From assembly GCA_020328155.1 (NCBI GenBank), contig JAIXMX010000008.1, positions 1 to 61,152 of the forward strand: 61,152 nucleotides of DNA, written 5' to 3'. A model generated the notes under the pieces. It saw only the letters and a list, made by a program, of their open reading frames with translations. It did no database searches and was not told the DNA's origin. Made by a program: the position numbers and the translations under genes. Position 1 is the first letter of the stretch; each line of letters begins with the position of its first letter. Positions 2,588 to 53,601 of the stretch are shown piece by piece. This DNA is from Candidatus Endomicrobiellum agilis (GTDB lineage: Bacteria > Elusimicrobiota > Endomicrobiia > Endomicrobiales > Endomicrobiaceae).

Positions 2588-5095
<2,508 letters not shown>

Positions 5096-5402: not shown

Positions 5403-6527
5403 TTACGCTCTCATCGGCATCACGACACAGAGATAATCTTTATGTTTTGCCGGAGACATTAATGCAGGATTAAGAGAATCGGTGAATTCAAATATTAAAA
5501 AATCTTCATCGATATTCTGTAAAACTTCCTTAATGAACTTAGGGTCAAAATTAATCTCTGCCGCCTCATTTTTATATTCGATTTCAAGCTCAGTTTCACC
5601 TGAGCCGATTCCCGCCGCCGAAGCTGAGATTCTCAAAAGATTCGGACTAAAATGAAACTTTATTGACGAAGATACGTCTGATGAGATAGGATTATCAACT
5701 AGAAGAGCCATTTGTCTAACTGCAGCAAGAGTGTTCTTCACATCCAATTTCACTTTCAATTTAGGCTTTTTAGGTATGACCTGCTCATAGTTTGGAAATA
5801 GTCCTTCCACAAGCGTTGAAAGCAGGGTTATATCATCGATTTCCACTGAAATCCGGTTATTTGTGATACCAACTTGTATATTTTCAGACTTTAAATCTGA
5901 GGAAAGCAGTCTTAACATATTGCCTATCGCTTTTGTCGGAACTATAGCTTTTCCTTCTATTCCTGACTGTATTATATCAATTGTCTTAATATAAGCGAGT
6001 CGTCTGCCGTCCGTAGCAACCATCTTAAGCTGACTATCTTTCACTATAAAATAAACGCCGTTTAGAACATATCTTTGTGAGTCTCTTGATGCTGCAAAGA
6101 TAGTCTTTTTAAGCATTGAGGCAAATATTTCTTTTTTAACTGTGAAACTGCTCTCTTTTGGAGATTCCGGTATTACAGGATATTCCGTTTTTGAAATTCC
6201 CATAAGATTGAATTTTGATCTTCCCGATATTATGTCTATGTGATTCGCTTCATCGGCTCTGATTTCTATTTCGTTATCGCTGGAAAGTTCCTTTACAATA
6301 TCTGCAAACCTTTTAGCGGGTATTGTAATCTCGCCTTCCTTTATTATTTCCCCTTTGACATAGCAACTTATTGCTACCTCAAGGTCTGTGGATGAAAGTT
6401 TTATTTTATTACCTTTAGTTTCAAATAAGAAATTTGACAGTACGGGAAGCGTATTTTTAGATGAAGGCGCTGGGGATATTATCTGAATTCCTTTTATCAA
6501 TTCTTCTTTTCCACAGACCACCTTCAT
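5403..6527 (-). CDS. dnaN: DNA polymerase III subunit beta (sliding clamp)
   Basis: 374 residues, normal clamp length. The three repeated clamp domains are recognisable, from MKVVCGKEELIKGIQIIS at the N-terminus to the C-terminal tail ending YLCVVMPMRA, typical of the beta clamp. It tethers the polymerase to DNA as a dimeric ring. Transcribed with dciA and gyrB. Two DnaA-box-like TTTTCCACA sequences lie at and just before its start, so its promoter region overlaps the candidate origin. Confidence 0.97.
   Translation of the reverse strand: MKVVCGKEELIKGIQIISPAPSSKNTLPVLSNFLFETKGNKIKLSSTDLEVAISCYVKGEIIKEGEITIPAKRFADIVKELSSDNEIEIRADEANHIDIISGRSKFNLMGISKTEYPVIPESPKESSFTVKKEIFASMLKKTIFAASRDSQRYVLNGVYFIVKDSQLKMVATDGRRLAYIKTIDIIQSGIEGKAIVPTKAIGNMLRLLSSDLKSENIQVGITNNRISVEIDDITLLSTLVEGLFPNYEQVIPKKPKLKVKLDVKNTLAAVRQMALLVDNPISSDVSSSIKFHFSPNLLRISASAAGIGSGETELEIEYKNEAAEINFDPKFIKEVLQNIDEDFLIFEFTDSLNPALMSPAKHKDYLCVVMPMRA
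6507..6515 (+). promoter_or_regulatory. DnaA-box-like site (TTTTCCACA)
   Basis: One mismatch to the DnaA box consensus TTATCCACA, located inside the first codons of dnaN. A second identical copy lies 32 bases to the right, about three helical turns away, which supports a real DnaA binding pair. Confidence 0.45.
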
Positions 6528-46657: not shown

Positions 46658-47905
46658 ATGGCTCTTGTGGTAATGAAGTTCGGCGGTTCATCTGTAGCGG
46701 ATTCCGATAAGATAAAACATGTTGCCAGCAGAATAGTTGCGAAGAAGAAAGCTGGCAATAAAGTTGTCGCGGTGGTTTCGGCGCCCGGCGATATGACCGA
46801 CGATCTGCTTACAATGGCTAATAAAATTACGTCTGATCCTCCCGTAAGGGAAATGGATATGCTGCTTGCAACTGGCGAAATGGTTTCAATTTCGCTTCTT
46901 GCTATGGCAATCGACGCTGTGGGCGCAAAAGTGATTTCTATGACCGGACCTCAAGCGGGGATTACGGCGGATGCAGATCATACGCGCGCAAGAATTAAGA
47001 AAATAAATCAGAAAAAAGTTAAAGACCAGCTTGATAAAAATAACATTGTCATAGTTGCTGGTTTTCAGGCTTTAAATCCCAACGGCGATATAACTACGTT
47101 AGGCAGAGGCGGATCGGATTTAACCGCTGTCGCTTTGGCGGCGGCGTTAGAGGCTGATTCATGCGAGATATATTCTGATGTCGAGGGAGTATATGCGGCT
47201 GATCCCAGAATTATAAAAGATGCGAAGAAAATTGATTATGTGTCTTACGATGAAATGCTTGAAATGGCGGGATCCGGCGCTCAAGTGCTGCAGTCGCGGA
47301 GCGTTGAAGTCGCAAAAAAGTTTGGCGTTGAAATACATTCAAGAAGCACTTTCAGCGAAAATCAGGGAACTATAATAACAAGCGAAGAAAAAATCAGGAG
47401 GAAGAAGATGGAAGCGTTGCTTGTTTCGGGAATAGCTTTTGATAGAAATCAGGTGAAATTTACAATAATAGATTTGCCGGATCTTCCGGGCGTTGCCGCA
47501 AAAATTTTTGGCGGGCTTGCGAAAATCGGCGTCAACGTAGATATGATTGTCCAATCTGCAGCTGTCGATAAAAAAAATGATATTTCTTTTACCATAAGCA
47601 GGCAGGATATGAAAAAAACTCAAATGGAGCTTGATAAAACAGTTTCTGAATTTGACGGCGCGAGCGTTATTTGTGACGAACATATTGCAAAAATTTCAAT
47701 TATTGGCATAGGTATGAAAAGCAATCCGGGCGTGGCGGCGCAAATGTTTGAAATACTTTCCAAAAAAGGCATAAATATTGAAATGATTTCCACAAGCGAA
47801 ATTAAAATATCGTGTATTATTGACGAAGTTGATGTGATAAAAGCGGTTGATGAACTGCACAAAGATTTTGGTTTGTCTAAAAAAAAGCAGGAGAATTTAA
47901 TGTGA
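46658..47905 (+). CDS. lysC: Aspartate kinase
   Basis: First step of the aspartate family (Lys, Thr, Met, diaminopimelate). 415 residues, monofunctional type. Kinase signature VMKFGGSSVADSDKI, TLGRGGSDLTAVALAAAL and YSDVEGVYAADPRI, then two C-terminal ACT domains (about 265-405) expected to bind Lys or Thr for feedback control. AGGAG eight bases before the ATG. Its stop overlaps the truncated pilin start. Confidence 0.97.
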   Translation: MALVVMKFGGSSVADSDKIKHVASRIVAKKKAGNKVVAVVSAPGDMTDDLLTMANKITSDPPVREMDMLLATGEMVSISLLAMAIDAVGAKVISMTGPQAGITADADHTRARIKKINQKKVKDQLDKNNIVIVAGFQALNPNGDITTLGRGGSDLTAVALAAALEADSCEIYSDVEGVYAADPRIIKDAKKIDYVSYDEMLEMAGSGAQVLQSRSVEVAKKFGVEIHSRSTFSENQGTIITSEEKIRRKKMEALLVSGIAFDRNQVKFTIIDLPDLPGVAAKIFGGLAKIGVNVDMIVQSAAVDKKNDISFTISRQDMKKTQMELDKTVSEFDGASVICDEHIAKISIIGIGMKSNPGVAAQMFEILSKKGINIEMISTSEIKISCIIDEVDVIKAVDELHKDFGLSKKKQENLM

Positions 47906-48081
47906 TCTCGAAAAAAGGGTTCACATTAGTAGAATTTATAGTGGTGATTGTTATAGTGACCATATTGAGCATCATAGCCGTTCCCGTTTACAGAAGTTAT
48001 ATAGAAAAAACAAAAACTGCGCAAAATATCTCCGCCGTTGAAAAATCGGCGTCAGAAAAAATTCCTCTAGGCAAACAATAA
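47902..48081 (+). pseudogene. Type IV pilin/pseudopilin N-terminus, truncated
   Basis: GTG 47902 overlaps the lysC stop, with AGGAG eight bases upstream. Only 59 residues remain: the class III signal KKGFTLVEF (prepilin peptidase cuts after Gly, Glu at +5), the hydrophobic helix IVVIVIVTILSIIAVPVYRSY and a short helix. Full pilins have 120-170 residues. After the TAA the next frame continues with Gly/Asn- and Cys-containing sequence, so a frameshift probably removed the globular domain. Without that domain it cannot form a normal pilus subunit. Confidence 0.65.
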
Positions 48082-48266: not shown

Positions 48267-49856
48267 GTGAAACGAATATCAGTGTTTGATACAACTTTAA
48301 GGGACGGTTCACAAGGAGCGGGCATAGCTTTTACCGTCGAAGATAAAATAAAAATAGCAAAAGCTTTGGACTCTTTTGGAGTTTCGTATATTGAAGGCGG
48401 CTGGCCTGGTTCTAACCCAAAAGACGAACTGTTTTTCTCTAAAATGAAGAAACTTGGCAACTTAGGTCTCAAAAATGCAAAACTTGTAGCTTTTAGTTCC
48501 ACGCGGCGCAAGGGAATCGAAGTTTCGGAAGATGAGAATTTATGCGCGATAATTAAGTCGGGAGTTAAAACGGTGTGTATATTTGGCAAATCGTGGGATT
48601 TGCACGTCAAATATGCGCTTAAAACTACGGACGAAGAAAATCTAAAAATGATTTCTGAAAGCGTTGCTTTCCTAAAATCTAAAAAACTCGAAGTGATATT
48701 TGACGCGGAACATTATTTTGACGGTTATAAAAGTAATAAAGAGTATGCTGTTAAAGCGGTGCAGGCTGCCATAGCCGGCGGCGCGGATACCATTTGCCTT
48801 TGCGAGACTAACGGAGGAATGCTTCCGTCCGATATACAAAAGATTGTCAGGGAAACAATAAGTCTTTTTCCAAAAATTGGATTTGGAATACACGCCCATA
48901 ATGATTCCGGATGCGCCGTTGCAAATTCCATAGCCGCCGTTGAGGAAGGCTGCATAATGGTTCAGGGTACGATGAACGGAATCGGCGAGCGGTGCGGAAA
49001 TGCAAATTTGTGTTCAATAATACCTGCTCTTGAGTTGAAAAGAGGCTACGAATGCATATCTTCCAAAAAAAATATAAAAAAACTTTCGGAGCTTTCAAGG
49101 TATGTCAATGAAATAGCGAATCTCATACCAGACGATACAAGACCGTATGTCGGAAACAACGCTTTTGCGCATAAAGCGGGAATTCATGTTTCCGCAATAG
49201 AAAGGAATCCCGAAACTTACGAACATATAAATCCTGTCCTTGTCGGGAACACGAGAAGAATTTTGATAAGCGATTTATCAGGTAAAAGCAATGTCATATC
49301 TAAAGCCAACGAAATGTCGCTGAGCATTGAGGATACCGCTACTGAAAGCGCCTCCGAAAAAGTTAAAAAAGTTATAGATATAGTTAAAGATAAGGAAAAT
49401 AACGGATACCAATATGAAGATGCCGAGGCTTCTTTCTTTTTAATTGCAAAAAAAGCTTTAGGATCTTTTAAACCGTTCTTTTCTTTAGTGCAGTACAGAG
49501 TTATCATTGAAAAAGATACGGACGGAAGTATAGTTTCCGAAGCGACGGTTAAACTTAATGTGAAAGGCAAAGAAGAGCATAGCGTTGCGGAAGGAAAAGG
49601 ACCGATTGATGCTTTGAATAAATGTTTATTTAAGGCGCTGATAAAATATTATCCGGATATAAAAAGCGTATTTTTGATGGATTTTAAAGTGAGAGTTATA
49701 AACAGCGCCGCAAACACGGCTGCAAAAGTAAGAGTTCTAATTGAATTTTCCGATTCTTCAAAAAGCTGGGGAACAATCGGCGTCAGCGAAAATATTATAG
49801 ATGCGTGCTGGCAGGCTCTTTCCGATTCAGTTGAATATAAACTGTTAAAAAAATAA
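48267..49856 (+). CDS. cimA: (R)-citramalate synthase
   Basis: Condenses pyruvate and acetyl-CoA to citramalate, feeding 2-oxobutyrate and isoleucine without threonine deaminase. 529 residues from GTG 48267 with AGGAG five bases upstream; a longer frame to 48204 lacks support. RISVFDTTLRDGSQGAGIAF, the metal site HAHNDSGCAVANS, GTMNGIGERCGNANL, and a C-terminal LeuA-type allosteric domain. The overall pattern is CimA (TIGR00977 type) rather than 2-isopropylmalate synthase or homocitrate synthase. Pairs logically with lysC and thrB. Confidence 0.88.
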   Translation: MKRISVFDTTLRDGSQGAGIAFTVEDKIKIAKALDSFGVSYIEGGWPGSNPKDELFFSKMKKLGNLGLKNAKLVAFSSTRRKGIEVSEDENLCAIIKSGVKTVCIFGKSWDLHVKYALKTTDEENLKMISESVAFLKSKKLEVIFDAEHYFDGYKSNKEYAVKAVQAAIAGGADTICLCETNGGMLPSDIQKIVRETISLFPKIGFGIHAHNDSGCAVANSIAAVEEGCIMVQGTMNGIGERCGNANLCSIIPALELKRGYECISSKKNIKKLSELSRYVNEIANLIPDDTRPYVGNNAFAHKAGIHVSAIERNPETYEHINPVLVGNTRRILISDLSGKSNVISKANEMSLSIEDTATESASEKVKKVIDIVKDKENNGYQYEDAEASFFLIAKKALGSFKPFFSLVQYRVIIEKDTDGSIVSEATVKLNVKGKEEHSVAEGKGPIDALNKCLFKALIKYYPDIKSVFLMDFKVRVINSAANTAAKVRVLIEFSDSSKSWGTIGVSENIIDACWQALSDSVEYKLLKK

Positions 49857-50405
49857 AAATATGCCGGCGCAGCGTGCTTTTGAATTTTCCTATTGTTTTT
49901 TAGCGTTTGTTTCATCTGTAATAAACCTTAAAGACATTACAGCTTAACGAAAAATCTAGATTGGAAAAGTTTGGCTAAAGACTGGACGCTGGAAGGTTTT
50001 GGTTTCAGCTTTCTAAAAAAAGGTTGTCCTCCGCTTTTAGATAAGGAATGATAAAAGAAAATGCGCTAAGAGAAGAAGAGAGGAGAAAACAATCTCATTC
50101 TGCTGACGCTGGAGCGTCTGCTTCCTAATGAAACAGGAATCCTTTACAAGGATTGCCCGCGGGTAACCGATTGCTGAGTTATTTGAAAGTGCATACTATT
50201 TCCAAAACAGATAATACAAAGAGGATAATTATAAGTTAAAAATATTTTAGCGGAGCAGTCTGCTGATAATTGGACGTTCCGCTAATTGGGAAAACAAGGA
50301 ATAATTTCAGCTTTTCCCAACTTTTTACTAATCCGTCAAAGCTGAAACCTCTGAAAACTTGGTTGAAGAAGAAATTAAAAATGCCTGTGAGTTGTTTATA
50401 AGAAA
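49857..50405. other. Spacer before the lipoprotein array
   Basis: 549 bases. No intact gene; short frames only. The left copy of a 24-base direct repeat (50329-50352) lies near its right end. Confidence 0.4.
50329..50352 (+). repeat. 24-base direct repeat, left copy
   Basis: Core CGTCAAAGCTGAAAC. It matches 52549-52572 at 22 of 24 positions in the same orientation. The two copies bracket the lipoprotein array, as expected for an insertion footprint or a recombination pair. Confidence 0.6.
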
Positions 50406-50798
50406 ATGAAAAAAATTATATGTGTATGTTTATGTATATGTCTGATGTCTGGCTGCGGCAAGCGGCCTAATCATGGAAGCACTGTGAATACTGTCGCTGA
50501 TAGCGGGGAAAGTATTCCAATCTCCGAGCCTTCAAAATCTCCCGCGACTGAACCGACATTTACGCCAAATCCAACGCCTGAGCCGAAAGGAACTAATCCC
50601 AGCTTGCCCGCTAATGGTGAGCCTTCCTCTTGGTTTTCTTGTGTTTCTTGGTATTCTCCTACGATTAATACAGGTTTTTGGGGTATAGATTGTATTTTGT
50701 ATTTTTTTTATTATGATTTTATTGTTTTTGTTTCATTTTACATGTTTGCTAACTGTGTATATCCTTTCATGTACTTATTTGAGTCTGCGCATACATAA
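50406..50798 (+). CDS. Array lipoprotein 1
   Basis: 130 residues. Signal MKKIICVCLCICLMSGC with the lipid Cys at residue 17, then GKRPNHGSTVNTVADSGE, a Pro/Thr/Glu-rich linker with PTFTPNPTPEPK, and a strongly hydrophobic aromatic tail (about 95-125) that could be a membrane segment. Homologous to array lipoproteins 2 and 3 through the linker; the tail differs, possibly by frameshift. Exported lipoprotein anchored at both ends is the simplest reading. Family not known to me. Confidence 0.6.
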   Translation: MKKIICVCLCICLMSGCGKRPNHGSTVNTVADSGESIPISEPSKSPATEPTFTPNPTPEPKGTNPSLPANGEPSSWFSCVSWYSPTINTGFWGIDCILYFFYYDFIVFVSFYMFANCVYPFMYLFESAHT

Positions 50799-50815
50799 GT
50801 CTTATCGGCGAAAGA

Positions 50816-50970
50816 GTGTATAGCGCATGCCACGATAAGGCGAAAATCTACGAGGCTGAAGATAGAACATTTATAAACGATAACGCATATAAGCAGACTG
50901 ATTTTCATTACTCGCTTGAGAAAGGAAAAAAGCTGATTTTCAAACGAGTGTTCAAAGAGGAAATAGAATG
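50816..50970 (+). other. Short open frame between array units
   Basis: A frame with a possible GTG start near 50816 and GAAAGA upstream reads YSACHDKAKIYEAEDRTF, then a basic tail ending at TGA 50968-50970. The stop overlaps the start of the next small ORF as ATGA, which argues for co-translation. Family unknown; it may be the displaced 3' end of an array gene. Confidence 0.3.
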
Positions 50971-51180
50971 ATTGAAAACGTTGAGAGCGTTACAGAAGAC
51001 ATTTTAAAGGAAACACGTAATATCTACATTTCCGCGCAGTCGTTAATAAGGCGGTTATGAGATAAGTTTGGCGAGCCTCCGAGAGAGTTAATTGAGCTAT
51101 GTGCGAAGATATAAAAAGTTCAGTTTACAAGATTGAGGACAACTAAGAAAATGAAAAAAATTATATGTATATGTATATGT
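50964..51180 (+). repeat. About 210-base direct repeat, copy 1
   Basis: Runs from just before the small-protein ATG into the lipoprotein 2 signal sequence. It is near-identical to 51779-51990, differing at scattered bases and by small indels. It gives the array an 816-base period. Confidence 0.75.
50968..51114 (+). pseudogene. 48-codon small protein, copy 1, with in-frame TGA
   Basis: Starts MIENVESVTEDILKETRN behind AGAGGAA. The frame is unbroken in phase to TAA 51112-51114, except for TGA at 51058-51060. Copy 2 has TGC (Cys) at the same place (RRLCDRF), so this copy carries a Cys-to-stop change. Predicted helical, ending PPRELIELCAKI. Lies directly upstream of lipoprotein 2. Confidence 0.5.
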
Positions 51181-51774
51181 ATATGTATATTCTTGTCGTC
51201 TGGCTGTGGTAAGCTGCTTGATCATGGAAGACCTGCGGATACTGTTGTTGAGTATAAAGGAAGCGAAGCACCGCATTCGCTGACGTCAGATACTCCAAAT
51301 GCTTCCGCTCCTGAACCTTCAAACACTCCTGCTCCAACACCTGAACCGAGTAAGTCTGTTCCGTCGTCTGATACTGCTGATACAGGTAGCTCAGTTAAGA
51401 AATATGCTGTGAATGCTCTTCTTTGTGTTGTTGCTCTTGCTGTTGTTACTTGTGCGGTGATATATAGGCGTGTAAGCCCTGAAATTTTTGAAAATGTTTA
51501 TATTGTTCCTGAGCCTAAGAATGTAAATATTCTTAATTCTACTTCTGAGCAATTGATGTCGCAGGGTTATAAACGTTGTTATTATGGTTATGTTTGTTCC
51601 ACTTCTTATATTTGGCGTTTTTTTAAGAAGGTAAAGAATACAATTTATCATTGGTCTTATTTTGATTTTGAAACGAAGCAACCGATTAGAGGAATGCCTG
51701 CTTTGTTATGTAAGGCTGGTTTGTCTATTGGGCATTTGCTTCATTATAAGCCTGAGCTTGCACCTAACCAATAG
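51151..51774 (+). CDS. Array lipoprotein 2
   Basis: 207 residues from ATG 51151; an in-frame TTG 18 bases upstream is nearer to a GAGGA. Signal MKKIICICICICIFLSSGC, whose core is encoded by a TGTATA hexamer repeat; lipid Cys at 19. Then GKLLDHGRPADTVVEY, a Pro-rich linker (PSNTPAPTPEPSK), one membrane helix (about 95-118, NALLCVVALAVVTCAVIY) and a Cys/aromatic-rich C-terminal domain. The longest copy and probably the only intact one. Function unknown. Confidence 0.65.
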   Translation: MKKIICICICICIFLSSGCGKLLDHGRPADTVVEYKGSEAPHSLTSDTPNASAPEPSNTPAPTPEPSKSVPSSDTADTGSSVKKYAVNALLCVVALAVVTCAVIYRRVSPEIFENVYIVPEPKNVNILNSTSEQLMSQGYKRCYYGYVCSTSYIWRFFKKVKNTIYHWSYFDFETKQPIRGMPALLCKAGLSIGHLLHYKPELAPNQ

Positions 51775-51778
51775 GAGA

Positions 51779-51990
51779 ATAGAATGATTGAAAACGTTGA
51801 GAGCGTTGCTGAAGACATTTTAAAGGAAACAACGCAATATTTACATTTCCGCACAGTCGTTAATAAGGCGGTTATGCGATAGGTTTGAAGAGCCTCCGAG
51901 AGAGTTAATTGAGCTGTGTGCGAAGATATAAAAAGTTCAGTTTACAGAATTGAGGACAGCTAAGAAAATGAAAAAAATTATATGTATATG
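51779..51990 (+). repeat. About 210-base direct repeat, copy 2
   Basis: Second copy of the segment at 50964-51180, placed between lipoproteins 2 and 3. The repeat covers a small ORF plus the start of the following lipoprotein, so the duplicated unit is small ORF plus lipoprotein. Confidence 0.75.
51784..51931 (+). pseudogene. Small protein, copy 2, with +1 frameshift
   Basis: Starts MIENVESVAEDILKET, then one extra base (ACAACG against ACACG in copy 1) shifts the frame. After correction it reads RNIYISAQSLIRRLCDRF and ends at TAA 51929-51931. It thus carries a different lesion from copy 1, and the ancestral 48-residue sequence can be rebuilt from the two. Confidence 0.5.
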
Positions 51991-52480
51991 TTTGTCGTCT
52001 GGCTGCGGCAAGCTGCCTAATCATGGAAACCCTGTGAATACTGTCGTTGAGAATGATGAAGGAAGAGAAGACGTTCCAACGGCGACGCAGACATCAGAGC
52101 CTGCTCTTGAACTTTTAAAAGCTTCCGCTCCTGAACCGACATTTACGCCAAGTCCAACGCCTGAGCCGAATGAGTCCGTTTCAGTCTTGCCCGACAGCGT
52201 TGAGCCTGCTTCTCGGTTTTCTTGGCATTGGCGGTTTCCTACGGTTAATAGAAGTAACTCAATTACAAAATATGTTGTGAATATTGGTATTTACGCTATT
52301 GCTGTTGTTGTTATTAACGGCGGTTATAAGTTTTATAGATTTGTAAACCCTAACTTTATTCCTATAAATAAATTAGATACTGTTAATCTTTCTGCGCCTG
52401 AAATTATCTTCAAAGGTTATAAACCTTGTTTTACGTCTTCTTTTAATAATGGTTATTTTGATTGTTTTTCAAGTTATTAG
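51968..52480 (+). CDS. Array lipoprotein 3 (shortened)
   Basis: 170 residues from ATG 51968. The signal is very short: MKKIICICLSSGC, lipid Cys at 13, probably too short for normal export. Then GKLPNHGNPVNTVVEN, the linker PTFTPSPTPEPNE shared with lipoprotein 1, and a hydrophobic helix (YVVNIGIYAIAVVVI). It ends at TAG 52478-52480, but the frame runs on as IDEIPVWNKGVPVGSHC, similar in spacing to the lipoprotein 2 C-terminus. So the C-terminus is probably cut by a nonsense change. Confidence 0.5.
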   Translation: MKKIICICLSSGCGKLPNHGNPVNTVVENDEGREDVPTATQTSEPALELLKASAPEPTFTPSPTPEPNESVSVLPDSVEPASRFSWHWRFPTVNRSNSITKYVVNIGIYAIAVVVINGGYKFYRFVNPNFIPINKLDTVNLSAPEIIFKGYKPCFTSSFNNGYFDCFSSY

Positions 52481-52926
52481 ATTGACGAGATACCTGTTTG
52501 GAATAAAGGTGTTCCTGTGGGTTCCCATTGTTCACTTCTTTATAAATCTAATTCGTCAAAGCTGAAACTTCTTCATTTGTTTAGCTGTCTTATATGTAGA
52601 GCTTGCAGGTAACTGCAGGCTCGTTTTTGTTGGTTGTATTTGCTTTAAAGGTAATAAATATCTGACGGCGAGGAATGCTTTGCGGTTAATAAATACGCTG
52701 GTTAGAGAGCTTGCAGATAGCTGGGCTGTCAGAAATTTGGCAGTATAAATTATTACAGGTCGCTGCGCATTATCGCAGAACAATTTGAAAAAAAGATTTA
52801 ATTATATTTGCATACGTATAAAAGATATTTATCCAATAAGTCTATGCTGTTAAAAATTCACGCTCGCACAAAGCTGGTTAAAAAAAAACGATGGCGGAAG
52901 AATATCGTAACAATAGCGAGAAATAA
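52481..52926. other. Spacer right of the lipoprotein array
   Basis: 446 bases. Holds read-through coding of lipoprotein 3 and the right 24-base repeat (52549-52572). Otherwise no gene recognised. Confidence 0.4.
52549..52572 (+). repeat. 24-base direct repeat, right copy
   Basis: Matches 50329-50352 at 22 of 24 positions. It overlaps the run-on coding of lipoprotein 3, so it may mark the edge of a homologous unit whose left partner is degraded. Confidence 0.6.
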
Positions 52927-53601
52927 ATGAATAAAAAATTAAAGGAATTCAAAACAAAAATTTTTAAAGCAGCGTTGTTTGATATGGACGGCATAATAAT
53001 AGATTCAATGCCGTACCATTTTATTTCATGGTTTGAGGTTTTAAAACAGTATGGCGTGCGGATAAGTCCTATGATTATTTTTGAGATGGAAGGTGCAAAA
53101 TGGGATAAAGTGATAAAACTTGCGTTTAAACAGTCGGGTAAACCGCTATTCCGTCAGGTAACACAAAAAATCCGCAAAGAAAGAGAACAAATTTTTAATC
53201 GGTATTTTAAAAGATATATTTTTACAGGCGCGCCGGAATTTATAGAATCATTAAAAAATAATGGCGTTTTGGTGGGGCTTGTCACAGGTTCTTCTCTAAA
53301 AGAAGCGCAAAAAATGCTGCCGAAAGATGTGTACGACTTGTTTGATACCATTGTTGCTGGAGATAAAGTGAAAAGAGGGAAGCCGTACCCCGATCCTTAT
53401 TTAATTGCTGCGAAAAATTTAAAAGTTTTACCTGAAGAGTGCGTAGTTATAGAAAATGCTCCGTACGGCATAAAATCGGCAAAGGCTGCAAAAATGTATT
53501 GCTGCGCCGTAGCTACAAGTTTGCCGGAAGCTTTGCTGTCAAAAGCTGATATAGTATTTGATACTCATAGAAGTTTATATAAGTGTTTTGAAAGTAATTA
53601 A
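52927..53601 (+). CDS. HAD-superfamily hydrolase (beta-phosphoglucomutase-like)
   Basis: 224 residues. Motif I FDMDGIIIDSMPYHF with the nucleophile and acid Asp, motif II LVTGSS, Lys in KRGKPYPDPYL, and motif IV VIENAPYGIKSAKAA. The helical cap and the sugar-phosphate-mutase-like motifs place it with the beta-PGM/phosphatase group. Substrate unknown. GAGAAA lies just before the ATG. Confidence 0.85.
   Translation: MNKKLKEFKTKIFKAALFDMDGIIIDSMPYHFISWFEVLKQYGVRISPMIIFEMEGAKWDKVIKLAFKQSGKPLFRQVTQKIRKEREQIFNRYFKRYIFTGAPEFIESLKNNGVLVGLVTGSSLKEAQKMLPKDVYDLFDTIVAGDKVKRGKPYPDPYLIAAKNLKVLPEECVVIENAPYGIKSAKAAKMYCCAVATSLPEALLSKADIVFDTHRSLYKCFESN

Follow-up and report, generated by a model that had tools for sequence, protein, structure and literature searches.

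In Candidatus Endomicrobiellum agilis, a tandem array of lipoprotein genes between leuA and a HAD hydrolase gene appears to be a small island, partly decayed, of a family of membrane-tethered lipoproteins that is lineage-specific and driven by recombination. The most likely role of this family, which we propose with moderate confidence, is that of a variable envelope repertoire. The array lies in a stretch of 61,152 nucleotides, hereafter the window, within a genome of 1,285,918 bases (23 contigs, 99.9% complete) that is the one genome of its species. Gene families are expected to disappear as the genomes of endosymbionts shrink; the endosymbiont described here carries and diversifies a family without a relative found in its phylum.

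Family size and distribution

Used as a DNA query, the 2.2-kb array matched 83 places in the same genome. A profile (A1) built from 19 intact members gave 71 matches in this 1.29-Mb genome at a threshold of E<=0.01, of which about 22 are open and nearly complete in length. Many copies are fragmentary or broken, and the family (hereafter family A) is spread over about 20 islands, the window array being one. The Elusimicrobiota search proposed in the preliminary description placed the family in its own genome, with no A1 match in 340 other genomes of the phylum, 41 of which are congeneric. Profiles for the accompanying small ORF and a pattern for the leader behaved alike, with 35 and 32 matches, respectively, in the same genome and none among 76 other genomes of the bacterial family. 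Two further groups of island lipoproteins, tried as bridges to relatives, were absent from those 76 genomes, and a scan of GTDB-220 contigs detected no relative of the family. Judged by the neighbouring leuA, the nearest named relatives are termite-gut Endomicrobium and Endomicrobiellum metagenome-assembled genomes; such a lipoprotein family goes unmentioned in two papers on Endomicrobia genomes (PMC11257099; PMC8809381).

A pattern scan of the island stretches yielded 75 lipoprotein-like ORFs, several groups of which combine a common architecture with unrelated bodies. Near-identical cassettes of upstream region and leader front unrelated bodies, a further sign of mosaicism.

Some island lipoproteins are made up of short DGYDKDGYDR-type repeats (L021:2155-2778 and 3471-3863; L016:16185-16460), and a 604-residue lipoprotein at L023:2376-4190 carries a coiled-coil body behind the same (IC)n leader. 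An identical pair of 181-residue lipoproteins is found at L020:4012-4557 and 5618-6163, 1606 bases apart and close to a run of N; it represents either a duplication or an assembly error.

Composition of the window array

Three homologous lipoprotein genes are present in the window (Table 1). As the preliminary description stated, they share a lipoprotein leader, a CGK..[ND]HG mature start and a PTPEP linker, and the 816-base period reported there corresponds to a direct repeat of 816-817 bases that carries the small ORF and the start of the next lipoprotein (173 nt at 91% identity and 54 nt at 96%). LP2 is the only intact lipoprotein of the three, both LP1 and LP3 being broken. In LP3, homology to the family runs on in frame past the TAG to about 52573, according to the family alignment and profile. 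Because LP1 is devoid of the conserved C-terminal domain, homology between its hydrophobic tail and the family membrane helix is not shown. Position 50329, originally given as the start of the array, belongs to what is left of the 3' end of a fourth copy; the tandem array itself is real.

Table 1. Features of the lipoprotein array and its flanks, numbered from the first base of the window.
Feature	Position	Strand	Description	Source
leuA/cimA-type synthase, left flank	48270..49856	+	HMGL-like and LeuA_dimer	Pfam
Remnant of another island gene	50110..50327	+		blastn
Lipoprotein copy 4, 3' remnant	50328..50401	+	NPSKLKPLKTWLKKKLKMPVS; family tail in alignment	direct repeat D7, 50328/52548
LP1	50406..50798	+	leader and linker, then hydrophobic tail; conserved C-terminal domain absent	
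Fragment of another ORF	50801..50971	+	56-aa reading	tblastn
Small ORF copy 1	50968..51114	+	in-frame TGA at 51058-51060	
LP2	51151..51774	+	207 aa; complete lipoprotein	
LP2 parts			signal 1-18, lipidation Cys19, P/S/T linker, C-terminal domain to 207	
LP2 (ATATGT) microsatellite	51162..51190	+	4.8 units; codes ICIC.. of signal peptide	TRF
LP2 membrane helix	51406-51462		about residues 86-104	
Small ORF copy 2	51784..51932	+	frameshift after about codon 16	
LP3	51968..52480	+	leader, linker and membrane helix; TAG at 52478-52480 cuts C-terminal domain	
HAD hydrolase, right flank	52927..53601	+		

The two small ORFs had been described as 48-codon helical ORFs. Both loci exist, but neither is open, and the intact form elsewhere in the genome has 58 or more codons. 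The pairing of lipoprotein and small ORF into a unit is borne out by intact arrays elsewhere in the genome, in which a lipoprotein is followed, usually after 1-25 bp, by a small ORF and, after about 4 bp, by the next lipoprotein. The small ORF is constrained, with a pN/pS of 0.24. The ORF fragment preceding copy 1 has a relative on contig C11 (L018:4870-5034; 69% identical by tblastn) that adjoins another small-ORF copy.

No RNA element was recognized in the array by Rfam. Promoter-like sites were no more numerous than in shuffled sequences, and terminator-like sites were slightly commoner. AlphaFold, given a two-row alignment of the window proteins, returned a pLDDT of 33, too low for the model to be of use.

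A dispersed stretch of ~55 bases (TGCATACTATTCCAAGATAGATAATACAAAGAGAATAATTATAAGT) occurs at 50183-50240 of the window and in about 10 islands (e.g., L026:1427-1477); it sits near the ends of island genes and is read as a common coding tail, ..SKTDNTKRIIIS. Upstream of the array, a prepilin-like short ORF (ISKKGFTLVEFIVVIVIVTILSIIAVPVYRSYIEKTKTAQNIS) is located at 47902-48081, between a lysC-type gene and leuA.

Leader, linker and membrane topology

The family layout consists of MKKI-(IC)n-x-SGC[DG]K, a Pro/Ser/Thr-rich linker of about 60 residues, one hydrophobic helix and a variable C-terminal part, which in most family-A members extends about 75-130 residues beyond the helix. Of the members for which a helix is predicted, most have about 50-85 residues between the lipid-bearing Cys and the helix, and this spacing also holds in the groups with unrelated bodies. 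All 32 ICIC-type leaders have GC at the cleavage site, together with a basic n-region, a hydrophobic core and a lipobox with Cys; at -3, Ser, Met or Thr frequently takes the place of Leu. Genes for the processing enzymes are also present, LspA (C11:65321-65740, E 1.9e-36) adjoining Lgt (C11:65785-66522, E 4.8e-68). Family members are predicted to be bacterial lipoproteins that follow the Lgt/LspA pathway.

The leader is coded by (ATATGT)n, and the number of exact units ranges from 0 to 12 in the 32 genes; signal peptides span 12 to 34 residues, and the frame is kept. This repeat and the genome-wide set of islands are both additions to the preliminary description.

According to the positive-inside rule, a positive flank marks the cytoplasmic side of a membrane helix. 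On average, the flank that follows the helix carries more positive charge than the one that precedes it, which suggests that the variable C-terminal domain is cytoplasmic. Such a location would be a poor fit with surface variation, and the earlier designation of these genes as surface-type is unproven, given that lipid, linker, helix and positive flank together predict a cytoplasmic variable domain. Most family-A members have Asp at +2, which in E. coli is an inner-membrane retention signal.

Recombination and selection

In a comparison of 20 intact genes, the identity of the linkers showed no correlation with that of the C-terminal parts (rho -0.008), and in only 2 of the 20 did both parts have the same gene as their nearest neighbour. 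The gene L017_1792 agrees with one copy at 19 of 20 informative linker sites but with a different copy at 75 of 94 C-terminal sites (Fisher p=2.8e-10). Because the linker and the C-terminal domain vary independently of each other, the copies are mosaics. RecA is encoded in the genome. The preliminary description had envisaged recent tandem amplification, a proposal that lacks support: LP2 and LP3 are only 45% identical, and the C-terminal part of LP2 has its closest counterpart on a different contig (85% of nucleotides). Shuffling and decay account for the window array better than fresh local duplication.

Pairwise counting on paralogues of one genome, which is not a codon model and takes paralogue variation as a proxy open to distortion by alignment error and recombination, gave a pN/pS of 1.83 for the membrane/C-terminal part over six disjoint pairs (p=1.7e-7, kappa 3). 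Removal of gap-near codons and poorly aligned stretches, which reduces such distortion without eliminating it, gave 2.69 (p=1.5e-6), or 2.16 at kappa 1. Neutral simulations of matching base composition averaged 1.05-1.22 and peaked at 1.81, and leuA compared with a relative by the same counting gave 0.24. The evidence that diversifying selection acts on the membrane/C-terminal part is good but not final, and the diversification suspected in the preliminary description is supported. Mosaic recombination and diversifying selection, the marks of variable (antigenic-type) multigene families, both appear to be present here.

Comparison with known systems

Judged by sequence, the family belongs to none of the known families tested, in agreement with the earlier impression that no described family accommodates it. 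A search with Pfam, PHROGs, NCBIfam, PADLOC and PDB profiles gave no significant match; 2 of 19 members weakly match the phage exclusion lipoprotein Cor (best E 0.01). The preliminary description had allowed that the copies might be remnants of a phage or transposon gene. This origin was rejected, as no relative turned up when LP2 was compared by tblastn with records of phages and plasmids or when viral contigs were scanned with the family alignment. By analogy, the architecture would resemble a u-spanin with an extra domain, and the population strategy that of families of the SVM or antigenic type.

In the sequence-variable mosaic (SVM) proteins of phytoplasmas, which are intracellular bacteria with reduced genomes, the leader is conserved and the mature part is variable and mosaic. 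Compared by description, the present family is alike in all these respects; unlike SVM proteins, its members are predicted lipoproteins with a membrane helix, an in-frame leader hexamer and a small-ORF partner, in a lineage with Lgt and LspA. In the opa genes of Neisseria, CTCTT repeats in the leader shift the frame and so switch expression on or off. Here, too, a short tandem repeat lies in the part of a multigene family that encodes the signal peptide, but the hexamer is frame-neutral, and its effect is limited to the length of the hydrophobic core.

The lpl, or tandem-type, lipoproteins of S. aureus are likewise tandem paralogous lipoproteins on genomic islands (vSa-alpha; PMC4470592), whereas the present family occupies about 20 dispersed islands in a single species and carries a linker and helix. 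The tandem-type model gave no hits for 19 family-A members (Pfam and NCBIfam, E up to 0.1). Phage u-spanins such as T1 gp11 unite a lipoprotein signal, a periplasmic stretch and a transmembrane helix in one polypeptide (PMC6139136). By hydropathy and spacing, the lipoprotein signal and the one downstream helix are found here as well; however, the helix is not C-terminal, and a large variable post-helix domain and about 70 paralogues set the family apart. No phage relative of the u-spanin kind was found with LP2 against phage records, in viral contigs or in PHROG, with island neighbourhoods read from ORF lists.

Possible functions of the family

In the variable-repertoire reading, variants would arise in two ways, as dispersed copies undergo RecA-type exchange and as the leader hexamer slips, and selection would keep novelty in the C-terminal domain. 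Located at the symbiont's envelope, such a repertoire may face a changing antagonist or partner, be it the protist host, phage or a competitor; a host- or phage-facing role is possible. If found, the partner would reveal what a bacterium that lives obligately inside a protist must still fight or bind. The signal-peptide microsatellite may act as an export dial. A more elaborate version, which we regard as speculative and rather unlikely, would have the slipping hexamer set signal-peptide length and hence the exported share. RecA exchange among the islands would reassort cassettes of leader, linker and C-terminal domain, and would also remodel the chromosome of the reduced endosymbiont; the diversified domain would be cytoplasmic or pushed through a host-derived membrane into the protist.

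The predicted cytoplasmic location of the variable domain makes intrabacterial conflict a serious rival, albeit one to which we give a low probability. The lipoprotein would then act as a toxin, as an immunity protein or in phage exclusion; anchored in the membrane, it would diversify its C-terminal domain against targets of phage or toxin kind, and the conserved small ORF would encode its partner or antitoxin. The positive post-helix flank, the close spacing and constraint of the small ORF in intact arrays, and the weak matches to Cor all point in this direction. However, PADLOC, PHROGs, NCBIfam and Pfam offer no significant match, and LP2 is intact between two broken small ORFs, so that an antitoxin would need to protect in trans. 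Slightly less probable still is that the copies are neutral or selfish repeats, spreading and decaying without function by recombination in a drifting genome. The many fragments and broken copies, the breakpoints at islands and the absence from all relatives searched would be expected of such repeats, whereas the near full-length open copies and the lipoprotein-processing genes would not. The results on selection are not explained by neutral decay alone, since the C-terminal pN/pS lies significantly above neutral simulation and the small ORF is constrained.

Improbable among these readings is a u-spanin-shaped trans-envelope tether serving envelope organisation, with its lipid in the outer membrane, a periplasm-crossing linker and a helix in the inner membrane. 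The Cys-to-helix spacing, which also holds in groups with unrelated bodies, is what such a tether would call for; about 100 more residues beyond the helix in family A, the Asp at +2, the lack of any phage relative found and diversifying selection, unexpected for a scaffold, argue against it.

Gene order around the islands

In two relatives (L097 and L105), leuA is followed by glnA, and the HAD gene is not next; in two congeners (L191 and L192), the HAD gene follows a CoA-binding gene. In the present genome, leuA, array and HAD gene are joined in the window, an island follows the CoA-binding gene on C7, and another follows glnA on C18. The order leuA-array-HAD would be the expected product of exchange between two arrays, an event that we infer from these arrangements. 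Several contigs end within islands. A misjoin at the window array, or the assembly duplication considered in the preliminary description, is unlikely because the longest exact match between this array and any other island is only 60 bp. Islands coincide with gene-order breakpoints, and they may offer a mechanism for gene-order change in reduced endosymbiont genomes. A co-oriented lipoprotein array at L016:2816-6390 (C18:16815-20389) lies between gcvPB and gcvPA and splits the glycine-cleavage cluster.
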